In this document: positions 44,724-51,444 of the stretch, piece by piece
How positions within the stretch are numbered: position 1 is the first letter of the stretch
How the letters are laid out: each line of letters starts with the position of its first letter
DNA from: Thermodesulfobacteriota bacterium
GTDB taxonomy: Bacteria; Desulfobacterota; WTBG01; CAIYCZ01; CAIRTM01
NCBI GenBank assembly: GCA_028282925.1
Contig: JANQGV010000284.1
Location: 1 to 51,444, forward strand
DNA length: 51,444 bases
Reading direction: 5' to 3'
Made by a program: the position numbers and the translations under genes
Notes under the pieces: generated by a model
The model's input: the letters and a program-made list of their open reading frames with translations, nothing else
Told to the model about the DNA's origin: nothing
Database searches by the model: none

Positions 44724-45842
44724 ATGTCTGACGATACCAGAACCAAAAAACAGCTCATCGATGAAGTCAATCGGCTTCGCCGCCGGGTCGACGAGTTGGA
44801 ACAGGCGGAATTGAAACGCCTTGCGGCCGAACAAAAGCTGCAGGACTTGAACACTGAGAGGGATCAAGTCAGTGCAGCAGTTGAAGAGTCCATTGCCCGC
44901 TCGAACTATATGGCGGTTGAATCCGAGCTTGTCTACCTTGAACTCAACCAGATGTTTAATGCCGGGGGCGACGGCGTGTGGGCGGTTGATAAAGACTGCA
45001 ACATACTGCGCATCAATAAAACCCTGTCCCGGATTATCGGTGTCAAAGTAGACGAAGCCCTGAAAAACAAATGTTACGACCTCCTGAACATACCGTTGTG
45101 CCATACCGGCGAATGCCCGATGAACCTTATTAAAAAAGGAAGGCGGCGCGTTGAATGCGACGTAGAGCTTGTACGCGCCGATGGTACGGCCTGCACGTTC
45201 AGCATAACGGCCACCCCTTTCAAAGGCCTTTCAGATGAAATTGTCGGAATGGTTGCCAATTACAAAGATATTACCGACCGCAAAAGGGCCGAAGCCGAAT
45301 TACAGGAGGCCAACCGCAAACTTGAAGAGCTTGCAACCCAGGACGGCCTGACAAAGACGGCCAACCGTCGCCTTTTCGACGGCTATCTCCGTCGGGAGTG
45401 GAACAGGCAATCGCGCAAAAATCAGCCTGTATCCCTGATTATGTGTGATATCGACTACTTCAAGCTGTATAATGATACCTATGGGCACGTCCAGGGTGAT
45501 GAATGCCTGTGCTCGGTAGCCGGTGCCATTACGACCAATGTCAACCGGGCCGCCGACGTGGTTGCCCGGTATGGTGGTGAGGAATTTGCCGTTATTATGC
45601 CTGAAACCGATGCCGAGGGCGCCATGCATGTGGCAAACAGCATTATGCAGACTGTCAACGACCTTAATCTAGAGCATTCCGGCTCAGCCGTTTCGCCCCG
45701 GGTAACGCTCAGCATCGGTGTAGCCTGTATGGTTCCGGAACCCACCCTCGATCCCGAAACGCTCATTGAAGCCGCCGATAAAGCTCTCTACACATCCAAA
45801 GAAACAGGGCGCAACCGGATCACCCTGATACAGGATGAGTGA
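44724..45842 (+). CDS. PAS-GGDEF diguanylate cyclase with intact active site and I-site
   Basis: RAADVVARYGGEEFAVIMPETD (RxxD I-site 5 residues before GGEEF); PAS segment GGDGVWAVDKDCNILRINKTL. Confidence 0.92.
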   Translation: MSDDTRTKKQLIDEVNRLRRRVDELEQAELKRLAAEQKLQDLNTERDQVSAAVEESIARSNYMAVESELVYLELNQMFNAGGDGVWAVDKDCNILRINKTLSRIIGVKVDEALKNKCYDLLNIPLCHTGECPMNLIKKGRRRVECDVELVRADGTACTFSITATPFKGLSDEIVGMVANYKDITDRKRAEAELQEANRKLEELATQDGLTKTANRRLFDGYLRREWNRQSRKNQPVSLIMCDIDYFKLYNDTYGHVQGDECLCSVAGAITTNVNRAADVVARYGGEEFAVIMPETDAEGAMHVANSIMQTVNDLNLEHSGSAVSPRVTLSIGVACMVPEPTLDPETLIEAADKALYTSKETGRNRITLIQDE

Positions 45843-48206: not shown

Positions 48207-48416
48207 CAGTTATTCCTTGACTCTCTCGGAAAAATGCTGGCTTCGTGCCTGATGATAATGGGCTACGGCATCATTGCCGTGCCCACCGGTATCGTAACTG
48301 CTGAATTTTCCAAAGCCGCCCGCAACAAAATCTCTACTCAGGCATGCCCGGAGTGCGGTGCCGAAGGCCACGACCCCGATGCAAAACACTGTAAATACTG
48401 CGGAGCATCCCTGTAA
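48207..48416 (+). pseudogene. C-terminal remnant of a voltage-gated (Kv-like) ion channel: S6 segment plus zinc ribbon
   Basis: [32 protein letters not shown]...[24 protein letters not shown]; in-frame stop (tga 48201-48203) shortly upstream; no S1-S5. Confidence 0.65.
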
Positions 48417-48557: not shown

Positions 48558-48563
48558 TATAAT
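48558..48563 (+). promoter_or_regulatory. Candidate -10 box (TATAAT) upstream of the riboswitch
   Basis: AAATTATATATAATCG in an AT-rich leader about 35 nt before the aptamer; no convincing -35. Confidence 0.35.
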
Positions 48564-48596
48564 CGAAACTTATTTTATATACATATAAGAATAAGA

Positions 48597-48690
48597 CTCT
48601 GCACAGGGCAAACTACGCCGAAAGGGTAGGACGCAAAGTCACCGGTCCTCAACGGGTGTATAATCCGTAAGGACGGCGGGACCGCCAGAG
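48597..48690 (+). ncRNA. c-di-GMP-I (GEMM-I) riboswitch aptamer
   Basis: GCACAGGGCAAAC..CCGAAAGG..GGACGCAAAG..ACCGG consensus; GAAA tetraloop; closing stem CTCTG/CAGAG; P2 stem GTCCT/AGGAC. Confidence 0.93.
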
Positions 48691-48712
48691 GCTGAAAGAG
48701 AAGCGTGTAAAG

Positions 48713-48747
48713 CCTGCCCTGGAATACATCCAGCGGCAGGTTTTTTT
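48713..48747 (+). terminator. Rho-independent terminator, expression platform of the c-di-GMP riboswitch
   Basis: CCTGCC-CTGGA-ATACA-TCCAG-C-GGCAGG followed by TTTTTTT. Confidence 0.9.
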
Positions 48748-48791
48748 ATTATCTTTACGGGTAAAAACACAAACATTTCGGGAGGCTCCTC

Positions 48792-49949
48792 ATGGTCGAC
48801 TTACGGGAAATGACCGTTCTCGTCGTTGATGACATGGAAAACATGTATAACTCCATTCGCAGTATCATGCGGGTACTGAAATTCGGACGCCGGTTCTACT
48901 ATGCCGAAAACGCCGAAGAAGCCCTGAAATTGCTTAAGGATCAGGACCTTCCCATTGACCTGCTGATTCTCGACAACAATATGCCGGGGATGAAGGGGGT
49001 GGAGCTGTTGCAGATGATTCGCGATGATACATCCCTGCGTGAATTGCCGGTGGTTATGATAACGGCCGATGCACAGCAGGAGTTCGTAACCATGGCCGCC
49101 GAATCTGAAATCGACGCCTATCTGCTGAAACCGATAACCGTCGGGCTCGTTAACGAAAAGATCCCTCCGGTCATAGAACGGGCCAACGATCCTCCGCCCA
49201 TGATGCTGCACCTAAAACAGGCCTATAAATACGAAGAGGAAGGCGATCTTGAAAAAGCCGTTCTCGAAGCACAGAAGGCTCTGGCCGAAAATCCCGACTC
49301 TTCCCGGCCGGTCCGGGAACTGGGTAAACTGTATATGCAGGCAGGAGATCTGCCCAGTGCCGAAAAGCACCTTCTGAAAGCGGCTAAAATGAATCACCTT
49401 GATGTAATCGCATTTAATCACCTGGGTGACCTGTATCTTGCCCAAAACGACCTGGACAATGCCCTGAACTATTATTCCCGGGCCGTTGAAATCAGCCCCC
49501 GCAATTATGAGCGGAGCCTGAACCTGGGCAAGCTGATGATACAGAAACACCTCACCGATAAGGCGGTGCCGGTTCTCAACAAGGTGTATGAACTGGCGGG
49601 CGATCAGCAGCAGGTGAAGGAAGAAATAATCGATCTGTGTCTTCAAGAGGGAGAAACGGACTACGCCGAGAAACTGCTCAAGGGCCTTGTGTCCGTGAGT
49701 CCCGGTCGTGGCGATCTCCTGCACAAGCTCGGGCGCATATCATTACAAAACGGCAACGATACCGATGCGCTCAAATATCTCTCTGAAGCCGAACAGTTCG
49801 ACCGGAACAATACGGACATAAAGCTGCACATGGCACAGGTGTACATTTCCCAAGGGATGCTTCTCCGGGCGGAAACACCCTTAAAGGCGGTTCTGGAAAT
49901 CAACCCCGAACACAAAGAAGCCCGGGAAATGCTGCGCCAGTGCGTATAA
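48792..49949 (+). CDS. Response regulator receiver domain fused to TPR repeats
   Basis: VLVVDDMENMYNSIRSIM, LILDNNMPGMKG, VVMITADA, LLKPI; then TPR units (e.g. VIAFNHLGDLYLAQNDLDNALNYYSRAVEISP). Confidence 0.92.
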   Translation: MVDLREMTVLVVDDMENMYNSIRSIMRVLKFGRRFYYAENAEEALKLLKDQDLPIDLLILDNNMPGMKGVELLQMIRDDTSLRELPVVMITADAQQEFVTMAAESEIDAYLLKPITVGLVNEKIPPVIERANDPPPMMLHLKQAYKYEEEGDLEKAVLEAQKALAENPDSSRPVRELGKLYMQAGDLPSAEKHLLKAAKMNHLDVIAFNHLGDLYLAQNDLDNALNYYSRAVEISPRNYERSLNLGKLMIQKHLTDKAVPVLNKVYELAGDQQQVKEEIIDLCLQEGETDYAEKLLKGLVSVSPGRGDLLHKLGRISLQNGNDTDALKYLSEAEQFDRNNTDIKLHMAQVYISQGMLLRAETPLKAVLEINPEHKEAREMLRQCV

Positions 49950-50042
49950 CCTGCTCTGCAGCAGCGTACAAGCAGTGCTTCTGCATCTGGCAGGAGTCTG
50001 TTCACAGTCAGGTAATCAAGCACGAATCGTAAGGCAAAACCC

Positions 50043-51107
50043 ATGTACGACGACCGCGGTTATTTTTCAATGCCCCCCGGTGCGATCCTGCCGGGCAAGC
50101 TGGGCGCATTCAGCATGTATCTGAAAACGCCCGACAGCAAGTTCCCGGTGCTGTTTGCCCGTGCCGGCGAAGTGGTCAGTCCTGCAGTACTGCAACGGCT
50201 TGAGGATACCGGTGTGCGGGAAGTATTCATCCGCACCGAAGATAAAGTGAACTTCGACCGATACCTGGAGGACCACCTCGAGCTGATCCTCAACAATACC
50301 GGGGTGGACCTCGAAAAACGCACCGAGGTCTTTACCCGTGTATCCATATCCCTCATTCGGGAATCCTTTGACCTTGTTACCAGGGAGGGTATCACCCACG
50401 ATGTTACCTCTCGGCTCGAGCATATGGTCCGCAACACGACCGTCTTTTTAACCCGCCAGAATACCCTTCCCGTGCTGTCCATGATGATCGGGTACGATTA
50501 CGATACCTACCGGCACTCTATGCTTGTATACTGGTACACCACCGCCCTGATGCATTACTGCCGGGATCTGATTGAGCAGCATATTTTCGAGGATTTCGAT
50601 GAATACCTGGTAAAGGGAGGTGTGGCCGCGCTGCTGCACGACATCGGGAAAACCATGATTGATCCCCGCATCATAAAAAAACCGGACAGCCTGTCCGAAT
50701 ACGAATATACCATCATCAAATCACACCCGTCCCATGCCATGGCCATTCTGCTTGAAATCGACATACATATCAGCATTAAAAAAGCGATTCTGCACCACCA
50801 TGAGGACTATAACGGCAATGGGTATCCGTTCGGCCTTGCCGGAAACGACATTCCGCTCCTGTCCCGCATTATCCGGATTACCGATGTGTTCGAAGCCATA
50901 ACCAGTCGCCGTCCCTATAAAGAAGCGATTACCCCGTTTCAGGCCCGGACCATCATGCTCGGTGAACTCTCCGGCCTGAAACCCGAACTGACACAGGATC
51001 CCCGCGACCATAATGCTTCGGGGTATTTCGACGGTGAAATTCTACACCTCTTTTTCAGTATGCTTGAAGAAAACAGGGTAATCGAACCGGAAGAGGTTGC
51101 ACCATAG
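50043..51107 (+). CDS. HD-GYP domain protein (candidate c-di-GMP phosphodiesterase)
   Basis: ALLHDIGKTMIDPRI; HHEDYNGNGYPFGLAGNDIPLLSRIIRITDVFEAITSRRPYKEA. Confidence 0.92.
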   Translation: MYDDRGYFSMPPGAILPGKLGAFSMYLKTPDSKFPVLFARAGEVVSPAVLQRLEDTGVREVFIRTEDKVNFDRYLEDHLELILNNTGVDLEKRTEVFTRVSISLIRESFDLVTREGITHDVTSRLEHMVRNTTVFLTRQNTLPVLSMMIGYDYDTYRHSMLVYWYTTALMHYCRDLIEQHIFEDFDEYLVKGGVAALLHDIGKTMIDPRIIKKPDSLSEYEYTIIKSHPSHAMAILLEIDIHISIKKAILHHHEDYNGNGYPFGLAGNDIPLLSRIIRITDVFEAITSRRPYKEAITPFQARTIMLGELSGLKPELTQDPRDHNASGYFDGEILHLFFSMLEENRVIEPEEVAP

Positions 51108-51146
51108 CCCCTCCCCCCTCATTCGGCAACACATTTTCAAGACGGA

Positions 51147-51444
51147 TCATCCGACATCGTGCCAGGTAAAAACCTTTGGTGAAATCAGGGCGTTGCAGGC
51201 CCGGGCAACGGCAACGGTCTCCCGGTGCAGCACATTCAGCAGAACCATACTCAGCCCTGACGCCGCCAGCATCGGGAGATAGGTACGCTCAAGAAGCCGT
51301 TTTTTTTCGCGGCCGCCGTCACCGGCAGTCAGGTTTGAAAGGCCGCCGATTGTCCGCACGGGAAACCCCAGCACGTCCGGCAGCAACCGGACAACCTCCA
51401 CCGCCTCCATGGCCTGCCGGTTGCCCTCGTGCCACATAACCGGG
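51147..51444 (-). CDS. Pterin-binding / methyltetrahydrofolate methyltransferase family protein, 5' end outside window
   Basis: FPVRTIGGLSNLTAGDGGREKKRLLERTYLPMLAASGLSMVLLNVLHRETV resembles the pterin-binding C-terminus (GLSN motif). Confidence 0.6.
   Translation of the reverse strand, partial: PVMWHEGNRQAMEAVEVVRLLPDVLGFPVRTIGGLSNLTAGDGGREKKRLLERTYLPMLAASGLSMVLLNVLHRETVAVARACNALISPKVFTWHDVG

Follow-up and report, generated by a model that had tools for sequence, protein, structure and literature searches.

In the textbook OFF riboswitch, the 3′ strand of the aptamer is swapped between the aptamer and an antiterminator. Among c-di-GMP-I riboswitches, Cd1 of Clostridioides difficile is an OFF-switch whose antiterminator is formed from the aptamer 3′ strand, strand A pairing with strand T (PMC9262584). 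pilM (Gmet_0970) of Geobacter metallireducens is a cGAMP riboswitch with ON logic (PMC9262584), and, of the two Bacillus thuringiensis leaders, Bc2 is an ON-switch and Bc1, which has two terminators, gave no in vitro response to c-di-GMP (PMC11218506, PMC4933901). Here we describe a c-di-GMP-I leader in a 51,444-nucleotide stretch of DNA from a Thermodesulfobacteriota bacterium (the window). Its sequence and modelled folding suggest, with a probability of roughly 0.7, a transcriptional OFF-switch with an antiterminator made from the aptamer 5′ strand (P pairing with T). A search of the open-access literature gave no description of 5′-strand antitermination in the c-di-GMP-I class.

The window leader and Cd1 are alike in aptamer class and in having a downstream terminator that is independent of the aptamer; OFF logic, a kinetic decision and a transient antiterminator opposed to the ligand-bound fold are further likenesses, predicted in the case of the window leader. 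They differ in the strand that is used: Cd1 employs the aptamer 3′ strand, whereas the main helix predicted here employs the 5′ strand, helped by a short A-side helix, and, unlike that of Cd1, captures the ligand-contacting position. A homologous aptamer and an intrinsic terminator are common to the window leader, pilM and the ON-type leaders surveyed below, but pilM and the ON-type leaders have ON logic and a terminator 5′ arm that is the aptamer 3′ strand, and the ligand of pilM is cGAMP. Bc1 and Bc2 share the aptamer class and the intrinsic terminators with the window leader; the logic of Bc2 is ON.

The aptamer, its terminator and the neighbouring genes

The only Rfam match in the window (cmscan) is to RF01051 (c-di-GMP-I, GEMM-I), which spans model positions 1–87 of 87 with an E value of 3.4e-9 and a score of 59.5 bits, above the gathering score of 35 (Table 1). 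This Infernal comparison bears out the class proposed in the initial annotation, and by its sequence we assign the leader to c-di-GMP-I. The same annotation described CAGGGCA as conserved; strong conservation in the class is confined to its GGCA part. Base 48607, which we take to be the equivalent of the ligand-contacting position 20 (numbering transferred from Vc2), is G, the c-di-GMP type, and the same column is A in the sister leader L002. G20A variants of c-di-GMP-I aptamers bind cGAMP (PMC6274999). The window aptamer is thus predicted to prefer c-di-GMP, and cGAMP is disfavoured as its ligand, though two sister aptamers do have A. These are L002 (650-731, minus strand; GAGCA) and L004 (1501-1585, minus strand; AAGCA), which have the cGAMP-type base at this position in a genome that also encodes G-type aptamers.

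Table 1. Features of the leader and of the genes downstream, in window coordinates
Feature	Position	Strand	Basis
TATAAT, possible −10 element	48558–48563	+	sequence
c-di-GMP-I (GEMM-I) aptamer, full-length RF01051 match	48597–48689	+	cmscan, 59.5 bits
Aptamer helix P1, 5′ strand CUCUG (partner CAGAG 48686–48690)	48597–48601	+	sequence, pairing checked by script
CAGGGCA, aptamer 5′ strand and ligand junction; predicted 5′ side of the main antiterminator helix	48604–48610	+	sequence; partner probability 0.90–1.0 for the first six pairs
Aptamer helix P1, 3′ strand CAGAG	48686–48690	+	sequence
AGGCU, predicted 5′ side of the second antiterminator helix; incompatible with P1, which it overlaps	48689–48693	+	folding
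AGCCU, predicted 3′ side of the second antiterminator helix; extends into the first bases of the terminator arm	48711–48715	+	folding
Terminator 5′ arm CCTGCCCTGG (CCTGCC-CTGG, switching strand T), with TGCCCTG 48715–48721 inside	48713–48722	+	sequence, folding scan
Terminator 3′ arm CCAG-C-GGCAGG (strand H), one bulged C	48730–48740	+	sequence, folding scan
U-tract T7 of the intrinsic terminator	48741–48747	+	sequence
GGGAGG, likely ribosome-binding site for the receiver-TPR gene, beyond the terminator	48780–48785	+	sequence
Response-regulator receiver and TPR protein, 385 aa, immediate target	48792–49949	+	ORF; Pfam Response_reg and TPR families
HD-GYP protein, 354 aa, HDIGK and NGYP motifs, possible second operon gene	50043–51107	+	ORF; Pfam HD_5 and HD

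The terminator that had been annotated, a hairpin (48713–48740) followed by T7, was recovered in the folding scan at −22.6 kcal/mol, with AATACAT as the loop between its two arms. A consensus terminator scanner did not detect it because of the bulged C in the 3′ arm. The hairpin starts at +19 from the aptamer end and is compatible with the full aptamer fold, the two together amounting to −61.6 kcal/mol; the leader has an intrinsic terminator that lies downstream of the aptamer and can coexist with it. No good −35 element was found for the possible −10 element, and the promoter scan lists no forward-strand sigma-70 site there.

Between the receiver-TPR and HD-GYP genes no terminator was found, the only terminator-like match on the forward strand from 49900 to 51200 being internal to a coding sequence. 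Gene order suggests that the riboswitch possibly controls the HD-GYP gene as well; the two genes were not found together near receiver-TPR orthologues. These orthologues are 46–57% identical in genomes of the same family, and the window genome itself holds a paralogue. The stretches starting 1.5 kb upstream of the orthologues (L011–L014, L019) gave no c-di-GMP-I match. We note two further features of the neighbourhood: a PAS-GGDEF diguanylate cyclase (44724–45842) is encoded on the same strand about 3 kb upstream of the riboswitch, and a frame just upstream of the leader (48240–48416), which ends in a zinc ribbon (CPEC...CKYCG), resembles the remaining 3′ part of an ion-channel-like gene.

Predicted pairing of the terminator arm with the aptamer 5′ strand

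CAGGGCA and the TGCCCTG of the terminator 5′ arm are exact reverse complements over 7 bp, at the positions given by the initial annotation. Random or permuted 10-nt arms reach at least seven Watson–Crick pairs with the aptamer 5′ segment in 0.4–1.6% of trials; if any part of the aptamer may serve as the partner, the figure is 2.7–8.8%. Because the chance rate is thus 0.4–8.8%, depending on the null, the 7-bp match in this leader taken alone is suggestive, not decisive.

The nascent transcript was folded at successive end positions with assumed starts at 48575, 48585 or 48595. For all three starts, transcripts that end between 48722 and 48734, where the terminator 3′ arm is still unmade, are predicted to have the 5′ arm on 48604–48609 (48604–48608 with 48717–48721, and 48609 with 48716) at a probability of ~0.9–1.0. 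Beside this main helix the ensemble contains a second one that the initial annotation overlooked, AGGCU/AGCCU, whose pairs 48690–48714 and 48691–48713 have a probability of 0.85 in transcripts ending at 48722–48730. In the model the antiterminator is bipartite, with the AGGCU/AGCCU helix stacked on the CAGGGCA helix. As the AGGCU helix overlaps the P1 3′ strand, the predicted antiterminator is incompatible with the aptamer at either side. The mutual exclusivity of aptamer and 7-bp pairing had been proposed from the complementarity, and the folding agrees; the modelled pairing also excludes the terminator and dominates before the terminator 3′ arm is made.

Energies calculated with tertiary contacts, ligand and polymerase excluded place the ligand-free antiterminator ensemble 7–11.6 kcal/mol below the aptamer secondary structure for ends 48722–48734, and the terminator 6–7 kcal/mol (6.6) below the antiterminator at full length (end 48748). 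Since the full-length RNA is more stable with the terminator folded, the switch must be kinetic; the barrier from antiterminator to terminator along a direct path is estimated at ~9–10 kcal/mol.

The complement could nonetheless be a product of chance, with the terminator a simple attenuator or the aptamer working otherwise, and c-di-GMP hardly altering termination. The chance rate above allows for this, no orthologous leader conserves the 7-bp match, and Bc1 is a c-di-GMP-I leader with terminators that is unresponsive in vitro (PMC11218506). Against it are the antiterminator occupancy near 1 in the decision window and the recurrence of the same register and design, with compensatory changes, in an independent set of leaders (below), and we regard a chance complement as quite unlikely. 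An antiterminator that forms when ligand is absent, as had been annotated, agrees with both the occupancy and the pairing in that second set.

The leader among its relatives

A search of 395 genomes of the phylum for a close homologue of the whole leader gave short aptamer matches only, and a gapped pattern scan of viral contigs for the leader returned nothing. We therefore rely on comparison by design, in a survey of 215 c-di-GMP-I leaders from the window genome and others of the phylum, classed by terminator position. In ON-type leaders the 3′ strand of the aptamer doubles as the terminator 5′ arm, which starts between −10 and −22 counted from the aptamer end; in OFF-type leaders the terminator lies downstream of the aptamer. 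The survey yielded 64 ON-type and 80 OFF-type leaders, and 71 without a clear terminator. The window genome (G000) has nine c-di-GMP-I aptamers (L001–L009): L005, L008 and L009 are ON-type, L002, L003, L004, L006 (the window leader) and L007 are OFF-type, and L001 has no clear terminator. Secreted-looking proteins are encoded downstream of two of its ON-type leaders. Relatives have c-di-GMP-I aptamers in tandem or in clusters (L126, L194, L199, L207, L213, L233).

The abundance of ON-type leaders, three of them in the window genome, lends some weight to an ON-switch here too, in which binding of c-di-GMP would prevent the terminator as in pilM-type leaders. The geometry is wrong for this, however: the window hairpin is not built from the aptamer 3′ strand, begins beyond the aptamer end and coexists with the full aptamer, and we consider ON logic highly improbable.

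In most of the OFF-type leaders outside the family discussed below, the best partner of the arm before termination is the aptamer 3′ region. The sisters in the window genome follow this pattern: the four other OFF-type leaders pair the arm with P2 3′ or P3 3′ and not with the 5′ strand, and we have rejected a common origin for their platforms and that of the window leader. The arms of L003, L004 and L007 (CCTGTCC.., CCTGTTC..) can form 8–10 bp with their own P2 3′ or P3 3′ (shuffled-arm p 0.025–0.05), which would give these sister leaders different antiterminator partners. The window leader might then be an ordinary 3′-strand (A-T) OFF-switch like Cd1, whose antiterminator is built from the A strand (PMC9262584), with either AGGCU/AGCCU or GGCGGG 48675–48680/CCUGCC 48713–48718 decisive and the 5′ complement a bystander. 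Both A-side pairings are present in the leader. In the folding model, however, the GGCGGG/CCUGCC option is 3–7 kcal/mol worse than the P-T fold at 48722–48734, and the AGGCU helix, which is present in the ensemble together with the P-T helix, reaches no further than the third base of the arm; the predicted main helix uses the 5′ strand at 48604–48609. An A-T switch is accordingly an unlikely account of this leader, and a 5′-strand antiterminator is the reading that we carry forward.

The independent set comes from another family of the phylum (e.g. G041), labelled f30 after the tool numbering. We define the P-T type platform as a terminator 5′ arm complementary to aptamer nt 14–23 and kept with compensatory change. 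In 27 of the 35 OFF-type leaders of f30 the folded arm lies mainly on the aptamer 5′ strand, and on sequence grounds these and the window leader appear to share the platform. The register is the same as in the window, with aptamer strand GAAAAGGCA against arm TGCCTTTTC; the terminator arm CCTGCCTTTTC faces GAAAAGGCA in f30 as CCTGCCCTG faces CAGGGCA in the window. The f30 P-T leaders (L102, L141–L169; e.g. L143, L155, L158, L162) resemble the window leader in the arm (C)CTGCC..., the TGCC/GGCA core and a covarying flank. They differ in the flank itself, which is AAAA or AAAU with 7–9 bp in f30 and CAG in the window, and in linker and target genes. One of them, L151 (1509-1583, plus strand), lies upstream of an HD-GYP protein (HHERFDGEGYP), an arrangement that the window may share.

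Within f30 an A-U pair is changed to U-A with compensation in L158 and L162 (GAAATGGCA/TGCCATTTC), and relative to f30 the CAG/CTG of the window amounts to compensated changes of A-U to G-C and of A-U to C-G; L146, L154, L156, L159 and L163 are uncompensated at the position changed in L158 and L162. A P-T helix of −8 kcal/mol or lower is found in 46% of f30 leaders versus 0.3% when arms are swapped in from other groups, and shuffling the arms gives 0.9%. Over 26 leaders, the window leader included, 90.2% of the cells of a 9-bp helix pair versus 42–58% when the register is slid by 1–3 columns, a count in which the cells are not independent, as f30 leaders are related, and for which arms were picked by a pattern. 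None of 500 shuffles attained the covariation score of these 26 leaders (0.116), but pairs with both sides changed number 2 versus 1.0 in shuffles, and 126 of 500 shuffles reach 2. The covariation statistics are consequently modest and, for the window, cross-family. In 19 f30 leaders, with arms picked by a pattern that favours conserved ones, the 5′ arm of the terminator is less variable than the 3′ arm of the same hairpin (mean edit distance 1.40 vs 3.39), as expected if the 5′ arm has a second partner.

A proposed switch and its meaning

In the mechanism that we propose, once polymerase has passed ~48722 with c-di-GMP absent, the terminator arm would capture the aptamer 5′ strand, including the G at position 20. 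With the arm captured, the terminator would come too late to form, and the receiver-TPR gene, possibly with the HD-GYP gene, would be transcribed. Were c-di-GMP to bind first, the 5′ strand would be locked in P1/P2, the arm would stay free, the terminator would form and expression would stop. The decision would be kinetic. That ligand leads to termination we infer from the topology and from analogy with the Cd1 OFF-switch (PMC9262584), and the OFF sense given in the initial annotation is supported on these grounds. Should the HD-GYP gene lie on the same transcript and encode an active phosphodiesterase, the outcome would be positive feedback, in which high c-di-GMP lowers an enzyme that removes c-di-GMP.

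The sensor is ordinary and of a known riboswitch class; the platform appears to be a recurrent variant, found in distant relatives too. We lean slightly towards regarding it as a distinct platform that recurs in the phylum, in which the arm captures the ligand-contacting 5′ strand, position 20 included, the ligand competes with the antiterminator for one set of nucleotides, and a free flank co-evolves with the arm and predicts OFF logic. If the 5′ strand is the switching element, the variable bases of J1/2 would be explained by their pairing to the terminator arm. A simple sequence rule would follow, in which an arm that matches the aptamer 5′ strand denotes OFF and an arm that is the aptamer 3′ strand denotes ON, and it may serve to sort the leaders of unannotated genomes into OFF and ON.
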